From Sulfurimonas sp. (lineage in GTDB: Bacteria; Campylobacterota; Campylobacteria; Campylobacterales; Sulfurimonadaceae): DNA of 53,417 bases. The translations under genes were made by a program, and so were the position numbers. Below the pieces are notes generated by a model. That model worked only from the letters and a program-made list of their open reading frames with translations. It searched no databases and was not told where the DNA came from. Of this stretch, positions 43,563-51,242 are shown in pieces (position 1 is the stretch's first letter; every line of letters begins with the position of its first letter). Location: contig JALSLJ010000093.1 of NCBI GenBank assembly GCA_026988315.1, positions 1-53,417 on the forward strand. Direction: 5' to 3'.

Positions 43563-43608
43563 CTCACATCAAACTCCTCACAAACCCCTCACATAGTTCA
43601 AGTAAAAT
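43563..43608 (+). promoter_or_regulatory. Efflux promoter with CTCACA direct repeats
   Basis: CTCACA occurs at 43563-43568, 43577-43582 and 43588-43593. The last two are 11 bp apart, the spacing used by OmpR/PhoB regulators. A -10-like TAAAAT follows after 9 nt (43603-43608). The same arrangement precedes cusA at 47691-47722. The repeat covers the -35 zone, as expected for an activator site. Confidence 0.6.
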
Positions 43609-43635: not shown

Positions 43636-44016
43636 ATGAAATCATTGGTAAAAATATTACTAATCGCTATACTAGGGGCGAGTTTATTGCAGGCGGCTGC
43701 TTTTGAAAAAGAGGCAAAAACAAGAGCTACAAAGGTTGTTCTTAGTTCTGAGAAACCCTTAAGCACTGGTCACAACACTCTCAACATAACAGTAGCGGGT
43801 GATAAGTTTAAAGGTGCAGATGTAAGCATAAAAATATTTATGCCAGCGATGCCTGGGATGCCATACATGGAAACAATTGCGGATGCTAAAAGTCTTGGTA
43901 ATGGAAAATATGAGGCTAAAGTAAACCTTGCAATGGGTGGAACATGGCAGGTGCATATCTTTATAGTTCCAAAAAATGGTAAAAAAATCAGAGCTAAAAC
44001 CTCTATAAATATATAA
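43636..44016 (+). CDS. Periplasmic YtkA/FixH-like protein of the efflux operon
   Basis: 126 residues. Signal peptide (LVKILLIAILGASLLQAAA) and an immunoglobulin-like domain with FMPAMPGMPYMETIADA and GKYEAKVNLAMGGTWQVHIFI, the YtkA-like (FixH-related) pattern. The Met cluster (five Met in 20 residues) could bind copper or silver. Heads the TolC-like and CusB-like genes with 7-11 base spacing. RBS AAGGA precedes ATG 43636. Such proteins occur beside CusCBA-type pumps in this phylum and may hand metal to the adaptor. Confidence 0.85.
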   Translation: MKSLVKILLIAILGASLLQAAAFEKEAKTRATKVVLSSEKPLSTGHNTLNITVAGDKFKGADVSIKIFMPAMPGMPYMETIADAKSLGNGKYEAKVNLAMGGTWQVHIFIVPKNGKKIRAKTSINI

Positions 44017-44026
44017 AGGATTTATG

Positions 44027-45244
44027 ATGCCCCGCTTATTTGCCAAAAGAATATTAAAACTACAGATTCTCCTGTTTTTACCTCTGGCACTCAGTGGGGC
44101 ATCATTAGATTCTCTTATACAAAATGCAAAAGAGTCACATACATCTCTGCAAGTTATAAAACAAAAACTCAGTGCAATTTCTGATGAATATGAACTTAGT
44201 AAAAACTTCTCAAACCCTGAACTATCAATTAGTATTAGCGATATACAACTTGGTGACCCAATAGATCGCTCACTTGAACCTATGCAATTTAGCTCCGTAA
44301 ATTTTAAGCAAAAAATCCCTTACTTTGGAAAAAGAGATGCCTTGTCAAAAAAAGTAGATGCAAAAAAAGAGAGTATAGTGTTTAATTTAGAAGATGCAAA
44401 GATAAAGCTAAGTAAAGCTATTACAATCAAAGCTTATGAAATTTGGCAGATTGAAGAACAGCTACGCATCACAGATGAGTACATAGAACTCACCAAGCAA
44501 AACATAGAGCTATTTACCGCCTACAACAACTCGGATGCAAACTCACACATGAGCATTATGGGTGCAGAACTTTCCCTCTCTCAACTTCAAATAAAAAAAA
44601 GTGATCTGAAAGGCTTAAAAAATGGTTTATATAAACAGATAAGCTACCTGAGTGCTATGGATGCTACAAGCATTGAGCTAGATTCTCAAATGGCTAAACC
44701 TAAAGATATAAAAACATATATCAACTCTTATGAGCAAAACAGCTTATACAAGTTAAAACTAGCAAAAGTAAAAGAGGCTCATGCGGAGGTTACAATACAA
44801 AAACTGCAAAGCTACTCTGACCCAGTTGTGCAAGTTGGTTATTATTATCGTGAGAGCTTTGAGGACTATCTAAATATAGGTGTTGGATTTTCACTCCCTA
44901 TTTATGGTTCTGAGAACTCTAAGCAAGAGATTTCACGAAAGATGGAACTTTCTCAAAAGAGTCAAGCGAATGATTATAAGAATCTATTGACTTCACAAAT
45001 TTATACTTTATATGCAAAGCTTCAAAATTCATATGAGGTTTATAACATCATACATCAAGAGAGCCTGCCACAGATTCAGCATATGTTTGATTTAAGTAGC
45101 AGTGCTATAAAAAACGGTGCTGAACTTTTTTTATATATAGATATGCTTGAGAGAAAACTCTCTCTTGATGAACAAAGTATAAAAGCACAAGCCTCATACC
45201 ACAAAACACTTGCGTCATTAGATGCACTCATAGGAGATATATAA
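44027..45244 (+). CDS. cusC: TolC-family outer-membrane efflux protein (CusC/CzcC-like)
   Basis: About 405 residues; ATG 44027 is 6 nt after AAAGGA, while ATG 44024 is closer than usual. A signal peptide (LQILLFLPLALSGA) precedes two repeats of long helices and barrel strands (FSNPELSISISDIQ, FKQKIPYFGK, DPVVQVGYYYRE, VGFSLPIYG), the OEP/TolC layout with the PLYG-like turn. Forms the outer-membrane duct of a tripartite metal pump. Overlaps the next gene by one base. Confidence 0.9.
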   Translation: MPRLFAKRILKLQILLFLPLALSGASLDSLIQNAKESHTSLQVIKQKLSAISDEYELSKNFSNPELSISISDIQLGDPIDRSLEPMQFSSVNFKQKIPYFGKRDALSKKVDAKKESIVFNLEDAKIKLSKAITIKAYEIWQIEEQLRITDEYIELTKQNIELFTAYNNSDANSHMSIMGAELSLSQLQIKKSDLKGLKNGLYKQISYLSAMDATSIELDSQMAKPKDIKTYINSYEQNSLYKLKLAKVKEAHAEVTIQKLQSYSDPVVQVGYYYRESFEDYLNIGVGFSLPIYGSENSKQEISRKMELSQKSQANDYKNLLTSQIYTLYAKLQNSYEVYNIIHQESLPQIQHMFDLSSSAIKNGAELFLYIDMLERKLSLDEQSIKAQASYHKTLASLDALIGDI

Positions 45245-46332
45245 TGAAATTTACAATAAATACAGTAGACTTCGGAAGTGAGGCTTTAGCCTCGCCTGAT
45301 TGCGGGACTAAAGTCCCACTTCCAATAGGTTATGCAAGAAGTCTAGTAATGTTTTTACTACTTTTTACAAGTTTCTTGGATGCTAAAGAGGCAACAGTTG
45401 AGCAACTCTTTAATGTTGTGACCATACAAGTAAAAGAGGTTTCGTATGCAAAAACTATGAAAAGCTATGGCTTCATCAAGGTAGATGATTCAAGAGTTTA
45501 CGATGTAACTCCCAGATTTGGGGGTTATGTAGATGTTCTTTACGGGGATAAGATGTATCAAAGGATAAAAAAAGGGGCGATTCTTGCAAAAGTATATTCT
45601 CCAGAGGTACTTAAAGCAAAAGATGACTACCTTAACACTATGCGTTTTACCAAGAAAAATCCAAACAAAGAGATGCTTCAAAGTTCAAAAACAAAACTAG
45701 AACTCTTAAATATTTCACAATCAGAGATAGACACACTCACTCAAACAGGTAAAAGTTCTTACTACACAAGTATCGTCTCTCCAGCAGATGGCTATATATT
45801 TGAAAAGCATCTTAACAACAACTCAGCATTTAACAAAAAAAACAAGCTTTTTAAAATTGTAAATTTGGATAAGGTTTGGGTGGAGGTTAAAATTCACCAA
45901 GACCAATTATCTTTACTTAAAGATGTAAAAGAGTTCTCTCTCACAACCTCATCATACACACAAAGCTTTGGGGCAAAGAGGATGCAACTGTATCCAGAAC
46001 TTGATGAGAAACAAGAGAGCTTCACCCTAAGACTAGAACTTGAAAATAAAAAACATCTTCTCAAACCAGGGATGTACACAAAGGTTGTGATGCGCTCAAA
46101 TAAACAAAGGTACTTAACTCTTCCAAATACCGCAGTTATCAGAAAAAATGGAACATTTTATGTCTTTATAGTTGGGGAGTATGAGGGTGAGTATGAGCCC
46201 CTAGAGGTTGAAGTTGAAGTTCTTAACCCTGATACATATAACATCTTAAGTGGTTTAGAGGTTGGTGATGAAGTGGTTAACAATGCCCTCTTTATGATGG
46301 ATAGCGATGCACAGATCAATGGTCTGTATTAA
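45244..46332 (+). CDS. cusB: CusB-like periplasmic adaptor with REP insertion in its 5' end
   Basis: 362 residues. AGGAG 7 nt upstream fixes ATG 45244. The N terminus is odd: about 33 residues, including a segment encoded by a REP-like palindrome (residues about 11-27), precede the membrane/signal helix (SLVMFLLLFTSFLDA). The mature part is a membrane-fusion protein: barrel-sandwich strands (VTPRFGGYVDVLY, IVSPADGYIFE), a short helical hairpin, beta-barrel (VWVEVKIHQDQLSLL) and a membrane-proximal domain (LPNTAVIRKNGTFYVFI, GLEVGDEVV). Links CusA to the TolC-like channel. An ATG further in (MFLLLFTSF) would skip the insert but lacks an RBS. Confidence 0.9.
   Translation: MKFTINTVDFGSEALASPDCGTKVPLPIGYARSLVMFLLLFTSFLDAKEATVEQLFNVVTIQVKEVSYAKTMKSYGFIKVDDSRVYDVTPRFGGYVDVLYGDKMYQRIKKGAILAKVYSPEVLKAKDDYLNTMRFTKKNPNKEMLQSSKTKLELLNISQSEIDTLTQTGKSSYYTSIVSPADGYIFEKHLNNNSAFNKKNKLFKIVNLDKVWVEVKIHQDQLSLLKDVKEFSLTTSSYTQSFGAKRMQLYPELDEKQESFTLRLELENKKHLLKPGMYTKVVMRSNKQRYLTLPNTAVIRKNGTFYVFIVGEYEGEYEPLEVEVEVLNPDTYNILSGLEVGDEVVNNALFMMDSDAQINGLY
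45274..45323. repeat. REP/BIME-like double palindrome inside cusB
   Basis: A 50-bp element framed by GGAAGTG (45274-45280) and CACTTCC (45317-45323). Inside are two 14-bp palindromes, GAGGCTTTAGCCTC (45280-45293) and GGGACTAAAGTCCC (45304-45317), separated by a 10-nt linker. Its GC content is well above the surroundings. The form is that of REP/BIME elements moved by RAYT transposases. No second copy or RAYT gene is in the window. It is translated in frame. Confidence 0.85.
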
Positions 46333-46344
46333 AGGGTAAGTAAT
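46332..46344 (+). repeat. 13-bp direct repeat bordering the inserted gene pair (left)
   Basis: AAGGGTAAGTAAT, starting at the cusB stop, is identical to 47738-47750, the RBS and start of cusA. The two copies enclose the DUF4325 and GHKL genes. The left copy keeps what looks like the former cusA RBS and start but leads into a stop. Confidence 0.8.
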
Positions 46345-46400
46345 ATGTAACTTTATATCTATAAATATAAAATAATTCAACTAAACTCCATCTTTTTATT

Positions 46401-46457
46401 TCTATTTAGATATATTTAGATATATTTAAGTGTATTTAAAGCTATTAAGATACACTT
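46401..46457 (+). repeat. Phased 10-bp repeats and inverted repeat before DUF4325 gene
   Basis: Four tandem 10-mers with consensus TATATTTAGA fill 46401-46440 (TCTATTTAGA, TATATTTAGA, TATATTTAAG, TGTATTTAAA). An inverted repeat AAGTGTAT (46428-46435) with ATACACTT (46450-46457) overlaps the last of them. Repeats phased at one helical turn may bend DNA or bind a regulator cooperatively. RBS AAAGGGG lies further down before ATG 46483. The 150-base gap holds nothing else clear. Confidence 0.7.
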
Positions 46458-46482
46458 TCAAAAAATATTCAAAGGGGCAAGA

Positions 46483-46785
46483 ATGGCAATAGTTATAAAC
46501 ATTAAAAATGAAACTGGCGGTTTTGAATTTCTTGGCTCAAGAGGTGCTGGAGAAATAATTAGAAAAAAAATGAAAAAAGAGTTAGATAAAAAAAACGACA
46601 TTACTCTGGATTTTAATGGCATCGAACAAGTAACTCAATCTTTTATTGATGAATTTTTTGGAATATTTATAAGGGCTTTTGGTATAGAATATATAAGAGG
46701 AAAAGTCAGACTCGTGAATGAAACTCAAGGCATTAAAGATACTATAAATTTTGTTATTAAATACTCTAAAGAAAGGACTGCTTAA
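46483..46785 (+). CDS. STAS-like DUF4325 protein
   Basis: 100 residues, cytoplasmic. The motif ITLDFNGIEQVTQSFIDEFFGIF is the diagnostic core of DUF4325 (STAS-like), in which a strand and helix carry TQSF(I/A)DE. Such proteins are nearly always found beside GHKL ATPases, as here. The gene converges with the ATPase gene; both stop codons fall in the same TTAA (46782-46785). The pair is inserted between cusB and cusA. Possible role is antagonist or target of the ATPase in a partner switch. Biological function unknown. Confidence 0.85.
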   Translation: MAIVINIKNETGGFEFLGSRGAGEIIRKKMKKELDKKNDITLDFNGIEQVTQSFIDEFFGIFIRAFGIEYIRGKVRLVNETQGIKDTINFVIKYSKERTA

Positions 46786-47618
46786 AAGTAGTCCTCATCT
46801 TCATCATCAATAATTTCACTCCATAAGTAGTTTCTTTTAAAATAATCCATATCATAGTCTATATTAGCTTCAAAAAATTCAAAAGAAACAACAACCCCTT
46901 TCCATGGATGAGATAATATTTTTGTTTCAAAATTTCCATTTTCATATCTAATCAAGGTGTCATTTGAAATAATTACAAATTTTCCACCTGTCATCTTTAG
47001 TATTTCAAACATAGCATATAAACCAAATCCCGCATTTTTTTCTTGTTGGTACATTTTTTGAACCGTTGATGTAACACCTTTTTCTAGTGCTTTTTTAATT
47101 GCTTCTTCTTCATTATTTATATCGCTAAAATTCAATTTCATATTTTTCAAAAAAGCAACACCTCTATCAACTACAACAAATTGAACTTTTTTGTTTCTTG
47201 GATAATATTGAGTCATAACATATCCACCAACCTCTGAATGTGAATGATCTGCAACATTATTCATTAATTCCAAAAATAAATATTGTAAATAATCCCGTAG
47301 ATCCCTAAGATCAACTTCTTTTAAATCAGTAAAGTTTTTTAGCATTATTGATGTTAAATGACTTGATATTTTTTCCAAACCGTTCCTATCATATATTCGC
47401 TCTACTGGACTATATGTTTTACCTTTTTGAAATGTGTATTCAATCATATTTTTAAAATAATCATTTTCTATAAAAATCTTTATCTGTTCTTCATTTTGGT
47501 ATGCTCTTGTCATTGCAATAAAAATAGGTTCTACCCACGACATCCCATTGAATTGGTCATTCTTTGACTTAAAAAGATATAAATAGTCTTCAATATTTGA
47601 TATAGTAATATTTCCCAT
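46782..47618 (-). CDS. GHKL-type ATPase paired with DUF4325
   Basis: About 278 residues; ATG 47618 has AAAGGA 8 nt upstream, whereas the longer start at 47636 has no RBS. The first 115 residues are an unassigned helical domain. The C-terminal HATPase has N-box YLFLELMNNVADHSHSE, G1 VVVDRGVAF and G2 NAGFGLYAMFEIL followed by GGKFVIIS. There is no His phosphoacceptor domain, so it is not a classical kinase; RsbW-like or standalone ATPase is likely. A TATAAT on this strand at 47645-47650 gives it its own promoter. The acidic tail (DDEDEDYF) is notable. Confidence 0.85.
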   Translation of the reverse strand: MGNITISNIEDYLYLFKSKNDQFNGMSWVEPIFIAMTRAYQNEEQIKIFIENDYFKNMIEYTFQKGKTYSPVERIYDRNGLEKISSHLTSIMLKNFTDLKEVDLRDLRDYLQYLFLELMNNVADHSHSEVGGYVMTQYYPRNKKVQFVVVDRGVAFLKNMKLNFSDINNEEEAIKKALEKGVTSTVQKMYQQEKNAGFGLYAMFEILKMTGGKFVIISNDTLIRYENGNFETKILSHPWKGVVVSFEFFEANIDYDMDYFKRNYLWSEIIDDEDEDYF

Positions 47619-47690
47619 TCCTGCAATCCTTTTCATTTAAAATAATTATACTTTAAATTTCTTCACCCTCTATTATCAATACTTAATCTG

Positions 47691-47722
47691 CTCACAAAGC
47701 TCTCACAAACAATAGCTATTAT
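47691..47722 (+). promoter_or_regulatory. cusA promoter with CTCACA direct repeat
   Basis: CTCACA at 47691-47696 and 47702-47707, 11 bp apart, then 9 nt, then TATTAT at 47717-47722. Element, period and distance equal those before the YtkA-like gene (43577-43608). It lets cusA be expressed with cusCB although two foreign genes lie between. Confidence 0.6.
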
Positions 47723-47737
47723 TTTATTATCTAATCG

Positions 47738-47750
47738 AAGGGTAAGTAAT
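47738..47750 (+). repeat. 13-bp direct repeat bordering the inserted gene pair (right)
   Basis: AAGGGTAAGTAAT, identical to 46332-46344. Here it forms the cusA RBS (AAGGG) and the first two bases of its start codon (ATG 47749). Confidence 0.8.
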
Positions 47751-50700
47751 GATAGAAAAAATAATAAGTTTTAGTGTAAAAAACAAATTTTTAGTCCTTA
47801 TGGCATCACTCTTTTTAGTTTTTGGCTCTTATTGGTCTATGAAAAACACACCTCTCGATGCTATCCCTGACCTTTCTCCTCCTCAGGTTATAGTGCAGCT
47901 TAACTGGGCTGGACAATCTCCTGAAATCATTGAAGATCAAGGAACATACCCTCTTGTTTCTCAGTTTTTAGCTATAGCAAACATAGAAACTGTTCGTGGA
48001 TTTTCAACTTATGAAAATGCTCTTATATACATCATCTTCAAAGAGGGAACAGACCTTTACTGGGCTAGAAGTCGTGTTTTAGAGCAACTCGCTTCCATGG
48101 GGTCTGGGCTTCCTAAAGATATGGAAGTAAACTTAGGTCCTGATGCTAGTGGTGTTGGTTGGGTGTATGAGTATGCACTCACTTCACAAACAAAAAATCT
48201 CAGTGAGCTGAGAACTCTGCAAGATTACTACTATAAATATGCCTTACTTGGTGTTGATGGGGTAAGTGAAGTCGCATCCATCGGTGGATTTATCCCTACA
48301 TATCAAGTAACTCTAAAAAATGATACTTTGGTTCGCTACAACCTGAGCGTACAGGATGTTGCAAAGGTTTTAAAAGCAAACAATAATGACACAGGTGGAC
48401 GAATCGTAATTCAAAACGGTTATGAGTGGATGGTTCAAGCACAAGGCTACATTAAAAACCTAGATGAGATCCGCTCTTTAGTTGTAACAACAAGGGCTAA
48501 CATACCCATAACGCTAGGCGATATAGGAAGGGTGGAGTTAGTTCCTGCTGCGAGGCGTGGCATGGCAGACCTCAACGGTGAGGGTGAAGTTGTTGGCGGG
48601 ATTGTTATGGTTCGTTATGGCGAGGATGTGTATGCAACCATCAAACGGATAGAGAAAAAAATGTCTGAGCTTAGTGTTGATGGTGTTGATGTTGTTGTGA
48701 CTTATAACCGTTCTGAGCTAATCGAAAAAGCTGTAAATACCCTTAAAACAACACTTATAGAAGAGAGTGTCATAGTTATCATTATCATTGCACTGTTTTT
48801 GATGCATCTTCGCTCATCCATTATAGTGCTTATTATTTTACCTCTCACCATTGGTGCCACATTTTTACTCATGAAACTCTTTGGGATTGATTCTAACATC
48901 ATGAGTCTTGGGGGTATTGCCATCGCCATAGGTGCTATGGTGGATGCTACCATAGTGATGATAGAAAATGCCCATAAAACTATCGTAAAAAGGGAAGAAA
49001 AAAAGGGCGAAGCACTCACAAAAGCTGAAAGATTTGAGGCGATTACAAGCTCTTCAAAAGTTGTGGGGCGACCTATCTTTTTTGCACTCTCTTTAGTTGT
49101 TGTATCTTTTTTACCTATCTTTGCACTTTCAGGTCAAGAGGGGCTTCTTTTTTCACCTCTAGCATTTACAAAAACATTTGCGATGATGGCAGGAGCTATA
49201 CTTTCCATCACTCTAGTTCCTGTTTTAATGCTCTACTTTGTCAAGGGGAAAATTTTAAGTGAGACAAAAAATCCGCTCAACCGCTTCTTTATTTGGCTGT
49301 ATCATCCCGTCATTGTTTATGGATTAAAACTAAAATATCTAGTTATTGTTTTAGTCCTTGCCTCTCTTTGGTTTATGTATCCAGTCTATAAAGGGCTAAA
49401 ATGGGAGTTTATGCCTCCACTCAATGAGCAAAGTGTTATGTATATGCCAGTTACTCCTTATGGGATAAGCGTTGATCAAAGCAAGATGATAACGCAAAAA
49501 ACAGATGCAATCATAAAAAGCTTCCCTGAGGTTGCGATGGTTTTTGGAAAAGGGGGAAGAGCAAATTCTGCGACTGATCCTGCTCCACTAGGGATGATAG
49601 AGACCATCATAACCTTTAAACCTCAAGAGGAGTGGCGTGAGGGGATGACTCACGAGAAGCTTATGAATGAGCTTGAAGATGCTCTTCAAATCCCTGGACT
49701 TGTAAACTCATGGACCTATCCAATTAGAGGTCGTATAGATATGCTCCTGAGTGGCATCCGAACCCCACTTGGCATAAAACTTTACGGAACAGATGCTGAG
49801 GGGCTTCAAGAGTATGGAAAAAAAATAGAAGATATTTTAAGACCATTCGAGAAAACTATGTCTGTTTTTGCAGATCAAGCAAGTGCTGGGTACTATCTTG
49901 ATATAAAACTCAATGAAGAATCACTTGCGAGATATAACATCACCAAAGATTACATCTTGTCGTATGTCTCAACTGCGATTGGCGGGATGAAAGTATCTAC
50001 TATGTATAAAGGCTTAGAGCGTTACCCTATCGCTTTGCGTTTTGAAGAGGAAGAGAGAAGAGGTTTAGAGTCTATAAAAGAGATTATGATAAAAACCTCT
50101 CTTGGTTTTGTTCCACTGAGAACTTTTGCAGATGTAGCTTATAGAGAGAGTGCTTCAGTTATAAAAAGTGAGATGGCATCCCCTGTTACCTTTATATATA
50201 TAACACCACAAACAGGAGTGAGTGCAACTGAGTATAAAGAGGAAGCTAAAAAACTTCTAGCAAATCTAAACTTACCAGCTGGTTTTTACATAGAGTGGGC
50301 TGGACAAAGTGAGTATCTTGATTCTGCAATGGCTAAGATAGTTTGGATTGTTCCAAGTGTGTTAGTTGTTATACTTATACTTATCTACTTTGCACTCAAA
50401 GAGATGGTTCCAACACTTATAGTGTTTTTCACTCTCCCTTTTGCACTGCTAGGTGGACTTTTATATATAGACTTTTTAAACTTTAACATGAGCATAGCTG
50501 TTATTGTAGGCTTTTTAGCCCTCCTTGGAGTAGCTGCTGAAACCGCTATTGTGATGATTGTGTATCTACAAGAAGCAGTAGATGAAGCGAAAGAGAAGTA
50601 TAAAGAAAAATTTAATATAAATAAACTTAACGACGCTATCTACGAGGGAGCAGTTGCAAGAGTGAGACCAAAGCTGATGACTGTATTTGCCATACTTGCA

Positions 50701-50859
50701 GGGCTCTTACCCATCATGTTTACCCACGGGGTTGGAAGTGAAGTTATGCAACGCATAGCTGCACCAATGCTAGGAGGAGTTGTGAGTTCGGCTGTTTTAA
50801 GCCTTGTTATTATTCCTATACTTTTTGAGATATATGCGAAAGCTCAACTAAAGAGGTAA
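47749..50859 (+). CDS. cusA: Heavy-metal RND efflux pump, CusA/CzcA-like
   Basis: 1036 residues, full length for HME-type RND pumps, with 12 membrane helices. Features: N-terminal helix then PLDAIPDLSPPQVIV, GPDASGVGWVYEYAL, the M4 segment SLGGIAIAIGAMVDATIVMIENAHK with its proton-relay acidic residues, NSATDPAPLGMIETIITFKP, RIDMLLSGIRTPLGIKLYG and STAIGGMKV. Met residues in the last three segments may be the three-Met copper/silver site of CusA, so monovalent metal is the favoured substrate; this needs alignment. Driven by proton influx, it works with the CusB-like and TolC-like proteins encoded before the insertion. Confidence 0.93.
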   Translation: MIEKIISFSVKNKFLVLMASLFLVFGSYWSMKNTPLDAIPDLSPPQVIVQLNWAGQSPEIIEDQGTYPLVSQFLAIANIETVRGFSTYENALIYIIFKEGTDLYWARSRVLEQLASMGSGLPKDMEVNLGPDASGVGWVYEYALTSQTKNLSELRTLQDYYYKYALLGVDGVSEVASIGGFIPTYQVTLKNDTLVRYNLSVQDVAKVLKANNNDTGGRIVIQNGYEWMVQAQGYIKNLDEIRSLVVTTRANIPITLGDIGRVELVPAARRGMADLNGEGEVVGGIVMVRYGEDVYATIKRIEKKMSELSVDGVDVVVTYNRSELIEKAVNTLKTTLIEESVIVIIIIALFLMHLRSSIIVLIILPLTIGATFLLMKLFGIDSNIMSLGGIAIAIGAMVDATIVMIENAHKTIVKREEKKGEALTKAERFEAITSSSKVVGRPIFFALSLVVVSFLPIFALSGQEGLLFSPLAFTKTFAMMAGAILSITLVPVLMLYFVKGKILSETKNPLNRFFIWLYHPVIVYGLKLKYLVIVLVLASLWFMYPVYKGLKWEFMPPLNEQSVMYMPVTPYGISVDQSKMITQKTDAIIKSFPEVAMVFGKGGRANSATDPAPLGMIETIITFKPQEEWREGMTHEKLMNELEDALQIPGLVNSWTYPIRGRIDMLLSGIRTPLGIKLYGTDAEGLQEYGKKIEDILRPFEKTMSVFADQASAGYYLDIKLNEESLARYNITKDYILSYVSTAIGGMKVSTMYKGLERYPIALRFEEEERRGLESIKEIMIKTSLGFVPLRTFADVAYRESASVIKSEMASPVTFIYITPQTGVSATEYKEEAKKLLANLNLPAGFYIEWAGQSEYLDSAMAKIVWIVPSVLVVILILIYFALKEMVPTLIVFFTLPFALLGGLLYIDFLNFNMSIAVIVGFLALLGVAAETAIVMIVYLQEAVDEAKEKYKEKFNINKLNDAIYEGAVARVRPKLMTVFAILAGLLPIMFTHGVGSEVMQRIAAPMLGGVVSSAVLSLVIIPILFEIYAKAQLKR

Positions 50860-50933: not shown

Positions 50934-51242
50934 TCAGTTAAAATTTGATTCTCCGTATTCTTGGATGACAGCATCCCCGCGGATAATTTCAATAGACCCT
51001 ACATCATGAACAGAAGAGATCTCTTCTAAAAAATAAGCGCGTTTCTCCATAATTCCCGCTTTCATATGCGAAGTGAGTCCAGCTTGAATTATCTCTGCTA
51101 TTGAAATCACCTTATTTTCAACAACAAACTGAAAAAAACTTCTATAGCTCAGTGTGATTATTGCGATAATGACCAGCATTGAGAGGAGAAAAACTTGAAT
51201 GAGTCTAGTTAAAGTTATATTTTTTATACTCTTTTTTTTCAT
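50934..51242 (-). pseudogene. Truncated membrane sensor (N-terminal part only)
   Basis: 102 residues: basic start, membrane helix (about 15-35, LIQVFLLSMLVIIAIITLSY), then a periplasmic segment with LTSHMKAGIMEKRAYFLEEIS and GSIEIIRGDAVIQEYG. This segment is the first part of a sensor domain normally followed by a second helix and an output domain (chemoreceptor, GGDEF, HD-GYP or kinase). Here a TGA ends it after the first third of such a protein, and the 40 bases up to the cusA terminator show no continuation. Probably a gene remnant; a stand-alone membrane peptide cannot be excluded. Confidence 0.55.

Follow-up and report, generated by a model that had tools for sequence, protein, structure and literature searches.

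We analyzed a 53,417-nucleotide stretch of Sulfurimonas sp. DNA (the window, meaning that whole stretch), in which a copper-efflux operon encodes a YtkA/CrdA-like protein, a TolC-like outer-membrane protein, a CusB-like adaptor, and a CusA pump (Table 1). This order matches crdA-crdB-czcB-czcA of the Helicobacter pylori copper operon with CrdRS (PMC12319023, PMC9927306), but unlike crdAB-czcBA of that species, the operon here is interrupted ahead of the pump gene. The interruption holds a tail-to-tail gene pair, with stop codons overlapping by 4 bp, and a second promoter of the copper-operon type facing cusA. A CrdR binding motif was not found in the literature, which just mentions a 21-nt sequence near crdA bound by CrdR. 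The 5' end of cusB carries an in-frame, REP-like palindromic repeat of ~53 bp (45271-45325), copies of which, 80-96% identical, occur in many congeners and elsewhere in the genome; at this place, cusB of the nearest relative (genome G030) has an ordinary short signal peptide start. On the reverse strand, a 102-aa ORF (50934-51242) resembles a truncated membrane sensor and has no Pfam match.

Table 1. Features of the interrupted copper-efflux operon, in window coordinates
Feature	Positions	Strand	Basis or remark
cus/crd operon promoter box CTCACAAACCCCTCACA, direct repeat with 11-bp period	43577..43593	+	Upstream of the crdA/YtkA-like gene
YtkA-like (CrdA-like) protein, operon gene 1	43636..44016	+	Pfam YtkA 3e-20
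Outer-membrane efflux protein (TolC/CrdB-like)	44024..45244	+	Pfam OEP 3.9e-23
cusB-like adaptor	45244..46332	+	Pfam HlyD_D23 1.7e-49; NCBIfam CusB model 5e-33, below cut-off
Left copy of the duplicated cusB/cusA junction, AAGGGTAAGTAAT	46332..46344	+	Repeat search, G030 comparison, whole-genome count
Inserted segment, 1,393 bp	46345..47737	.	Comparison with the empty junctions of G030 and other congeners
DUF4325 STAS-like protein, 100 aa	46483..46785	+	Pfam DUF4325 E 3.7e-13; predicted STAS-type fold
GHKL kinase-like protein, 284 aa; SpoIIAB-like domain at residues 72-258	46782..47636	-	Motifs and predicted fold
Second cus-type promoter box CTCACAAAGCTCTCACA, ascribed to cusA	47691..47707	+	Inside the insert; sequence and conserved spacing
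Sigma-70-like hexamers CTCACA-17-TATTAT, overlapping the second box	47702..47730	+	Consensus scan; weak alone
Right copy of AAGGGTAAGTAAT	47738..47750	+	Holds the cusA ribosome-binding site and start codon bases 1-2
cusA, CusA/CzcA-type RND pump	47749..50859	+	TIGR00914 982 bits

The 13-bp sequence AAGGGTAAGTAAT occurs in 2 exact copies, one on each side of the insert, and nowhere else in the 2,189,493-base (2.19 Mb) genome; the first base of the left copy is the final A of the cusB stop codon. In G030, the sister of the window sequence in the cusA tree (support 99/94), cusB and cusA are separated by 10 bp and joined through a single near-copy, AAGGATAAGTAAT, with the junction from the cusB stop to the cusA start reading CTAAAGGATAAGTAATG. 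In the window, the left copy agrees with the G030 junction on the cusB side and the right copy on the cusA side. This sets the limits of the insert and leaves a 13-bp piece of the junction at each of its ends. Since ~15 separate 13-bp stretches are repeated within 2 kb of each other in this AT-rich window, such a repeat is not rare by itself, and the duplication is carried by the comparative evidence. Judged from the aligned junctions, the 13-bp repeat is the duplicated ancestral cusB/cusA junction, which, as the comparison shows, has taken in a segment of 1,393 bp. A preliminary description of this DNA had claimed the flanking 13-bp repeat, 2 convergent genes unrelated to efflux, and an insertion into the operon with duplication of the target, and all of these held, with G030 supplying the relative in which cusB is joined directly to cusA. 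Searches among relatives for the pair at the same junction without the repeat, and throughout the genome for further copies of the 13-mer, found neither.

That description had missed the second promoter box before cusA as well as the recurrent use of the junction by cargo in the genus. The strict form of the box (CTCACA-N5-CTCACA) is present at 2 sites genome-wide, ahead of operon gene 1 and within the insert ahead of cusA, and a looser form adds 1 further site. We surveyed the junction in 45 congeners with both cusB and cusA placed, many of them draft or metagenome-assembled genomes. The box lay 56-60 bp before cusA in 13/13 cargo-bearing junctions (gaps of at least 258 bp) and in 0/27 junctions with gaps of 2-27 bp (G030 and 26 other congeners). 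Two 65-bp junctions had the box and no cargo, and 3 junctions of 87-125 bp lacked the box, so that it was found in 2/32 gaps below 250 bp. The link between box and cargo is strong in counts (uncorrected Fisher p 1.4e-9), but its freedom from shared ancestry is not proven by the test corrected for relatedness, in which 4 independent pairs were concordant, 0 discordant, and 1 tied (sign test p 0.125).

On the cusA tree, cargo changed state at least 5 times along well-supported branches. The cargoes included DsbA-like (G025), GNAT (G167, G067), ATG22/MFS transporter, cytosine methylase, YafQ, HipA, and transposase genes, and no cargo was present at the operon's tolC-cusB junction in any of the ~37 genomes where it was readable. 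By these gene contents, the cusB/cusA junction has repeatedly received cargo within the genus and is filled by different foreign genes. The second promoter could keep the cut-off cusA expressed, and its position and its sharing with operon gene 1 suggest copper control. That unrelated cargo can split an operon again and again while its distal gene retains a promoter of the same type is relevant to how accessory genes come to occupy sites where they are tolerated. A copy of the window's own ytkA promoter was considered as the source of the promoter in the insert and set aside, with best matches scattered over the ytkA and cusA promoters of other species and no clear source among them. At G153, G072, and G032 (loci L021, L120, L121), the junctions of 87-125 bp, which lack the cus box, contain a short repeat of another kind. 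In Sulfurospirillum-type loci (L147-L162), the cus promoter box marks a sharp boundary, with the adjoining upstream sequence differing between genomes.

Both a staggered-end insertion and a homology-guided recombination from a cargo-promoter-cusA donor fit these data. A transposase acting in trans on a nonautonomous transposon would account for the exact 13-bp duplication as a target-site duplication, yet the insert has no transposase, conserved ends or terminal inverted repeats are absent across 18 relatives, the unit is single copy in the genome, and the repeat is absent around other cargoes of the same slot, so that we consider this origin unlikely. For the same lack of a transposase, terminal inverted repeats, and shared ends, we rejected an identification of the segment as a transposon or insertion sequence. 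The junction repeat was seen in the window alone, the other cargo junctions having matches of 7-9 bp, a size expected by chance. Homology-facilitated illegitimate recombination, in which an incoming stretch of pair, cus promoter, ribosome-binding site, and cusA recombined within cusA at its right end and was joined through microhomology at its left end, is a tentative possibility, somewhat ahead of the transposon. It would explain the promoter, the repeated ribosome-binding site, and the missing transposase together, and the cargo-promoter-cusA arrangement it draws on exists in other congeners; with the same tentativeness, the repeat would then be 1 recipient and 1 donor ribosome-binding site. 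Against it, sliding identity over the first 1 kb of cusA gave no donor-like stretch, and cargo-bearing species do not consistently displace G030 as the closest in cusA.

The plus-strand gene encodes a DUF4325 protein whose predicted model has a STAS-type fold with Z of 6-7.6, where several unrelated folds score 5-6. Its sequence profile has VapS (9z7o, E 7e-5) as the sole significant sequence match in the PDB. Ser53, with which helix 52-66 all but begins and which is shared by all 16 copies paired with a kinase, is proposed as the phospho-acceptor, with Thr/Ser51 kept as the alternative because VapS Ser48 is shifted by 1 column in the profile alignment, falling one position before Ser53. Orphan DUF4325 genes beside phage/integrase-type genes at 2 loci (L131, L132) have Ala in place of Ser53, and no kinase homologue was detected in either genome, 1 of which is 83% complete. 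The substitution in kinase-less genomes fits Ser53 as the kinase target and offers a natural control; the 2 Ser-to-Ala copies are from one family and may reflect a single event.

The minus-strand gene product is assigned to GHKL below Pfam cut-offs by sequence and is SpoIIAB-like by predicted fold (Z 12.5, rmsd 2.5, 129 residues), well above gyrase-type matches. The ATP-binding motifs are invariant (N-box E123/N126/N127, D157-x-G159, and N201AG203-x-G205L), so the predicted model has both the SpoIIAB-like GHKL fold and the intact ATP motifs of a partner-switching kinase. The GHKL sequence profile gave no meaningful match to solved structures. The N-terminal residues 1-70 received no domain assignment: a search for a STAS domain there by profile comparison gave nothing, and the structural matches listed span residues 68-262 only.

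In CapKS and VapKSC, a GHKL kinase acts on its STAS partner by phosphorylating a conserved Ser, and ssDNA activates the kinase or has been proposed to do so (Chambers et al. 2026, PMC13373217). Like VapK-VapS, the pair combines a GHKL kinase with a small STAS protein whose STAS domain has a conserved Ser/Thr. In contrast, VapKSC has a VapC PIN toxin in a 3-gene operon, VapK an N-terminal STAS domain, and VapS a long C-terminal tail, whereas the pair here is convergent, with no third gene between the repeats and no VapC beside the pair in the relatives inspected, and its STAS protein lacks such a tail. CapK-CapS is likewise a kinase/STAS pair next to immune genes, as at some relatives' loci, and 88/443 capKS adjoin restriction-modification systems (PMC13373217). 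However, CapS consists of STAS with a C-terminal winged HTH, for which the single predicted STAS-type domain of the 100-aa protein leaves no room. CapK is HTH-STAS-GHKL; the 284-aa protein has its GHKL fold at residues 72-258 and gave no HTH family match in Pfam. CapK-CapS sits immediately upstream of an immune operon, whereas the neighbors here are cusB and cusA. With SpoIIAB-SpoIIAA and RsbW-RsbV, the pair shares predicted folds (STAS antagonists Z ~6) and a Ser starting the second STAS helix, but identity is 6-20% and a sigma factor partner is absent here. Since VapC and the DNA-binding domain of CapS are both missing, the pair is a variant of the VapK-VapS/CapK-CapS kind and not a member. 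The closest characterized kinase/STAS switches, described only in 2026, have a repressor domain or toxin output, and a conserved version with neither raises the testable question of what the STAS protein binds.

Relatives of the pair were patchy, being identified in 15/299 Campylobacterales genomes, with the kinase present in 9/149 nearest relatives. Nearly all of the Campylobacterales relatives were convergent, often with the same 4-bp overlap, the exceptions being a co-directional pair (L135), a VapK-like co-directional operon (L137), and the orphan STAS genes. The L137 operon encodes a VapK-like protein (341 aa) and a DUF4325 protein (112 aa) and is cut by the contig end. A check of other locations and of defence islands found the relatives at unrelated sites, several beside restriction, Thoeris, or GmrSD-type genes. 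The pair lies between hsdS and hsdR at 3 Sulfurovum-type loci (L058, L062, L065), and 1 more adjoins an hsdS-like ORF by inspection. Other copies lie beside ThsB/TIR (Thoeris) genes (L063), near GmrSD/HEPN/methyltransferase genes (L059), next to tyrosine integrases (L045, L128), and near tRNA-Val (L043). A ~1.34-kb unit is 92.9% identical in DNA over 1,338 bp at 2 unrelated loci (L068, L069), and it is because of such occurrence at unrelated sites that we use the word mobile, no mobility gene being visible. Of the "mobile signalling or defence module" proposed in the preliminary description, the inserted signalling module stands and the self-mobile unit does not; the defence link applies at the hsd, ThsB/TIR, and GmrSD/HEPN loci of some relatives and not here, where no defence gene touches the pair. 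A clean empty site for L069, of Sulfurospirillum type, was sought without success, as the pair is inside a 3.3-kb stretch missing from L170 and no precise duplication is readable. Beside that pair (L069, 9316-9364) is a dispersed short repeat with many copies in the same genus.

By sequence homology and predicted fold, the 2-gene module is probably a protein kinase with its switch protein, related to the phage-defence regulators described in 2026. The GHKL protein would bind ATP and phosphorylate its STAS-like partner, with Ser53 as the likeliest site, thereby changing what that partner binds; to judge from VapK/CapK, DNA damage or phage infection may trigger the switch. Because the GHKL gene is oriented opposite to the operon, its insertion would be tolerable only through cusA having gained its own cus-type promoter, a solution that appears to recur wherever cargo occupies the junction across the genus. 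We consider this explanation as a whole, an inserted partner-switching phospho-switch with a cus-type promoter of its own for cusA, reasonably likely.

A role of the pair in its own right as a VapKSC-like system for anti-phage defence or as a toxin-antitoxin, in the cus operon by chance, agrees with the type I RM, ThsB/TIR, and GmrSD/HEPN neighbors at other sites, with VapS being the one significant PDB match, and with the PADLOC DrmA profile, which has weak partial matches to short adjacent stretches of both proteins (E 2e-5 and 8e-7). We find it doubtful, however, as VapC or another effector is absent from the unit at all loci read, the STAS protein is small and single-domain, and this operon has no adjacent defence gene. 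Selection of the pair for its position as a regulator of the copper pump is very improbable: in 2 Sulfurospirillum-type genomes a related pair is directly upstream of the cus operon promoter (L046, L068), with GHKL divergent to ytkA, but gene order upstream is generally variable in that group, only 2/16 have the pair, and most relatives occur well away from cus genes. A wider form of the favored phospho-switch reading, which we offer as speculation and think quite unlikely, is that an effector-less GHKL/STAS switch travels in Campylobacterales as a compact tail-to-tail cassette coupling a stress or phage signal to its neighbors (hsdR, Thoeris, and here cusA), with the cusB/cusA junction serving as an insulated docking slot that the second, metal-responsive promoter renders permissive.

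Viral contigs yielded no relatives of the pair, and plasmids and phages only ~30% identical GHKL domains. Phage PHROG 5816 matches both proteins over separate stretches, a pattern that suggests a fusion, and a Bacteroides phage has GHKL followed by DUF4325.
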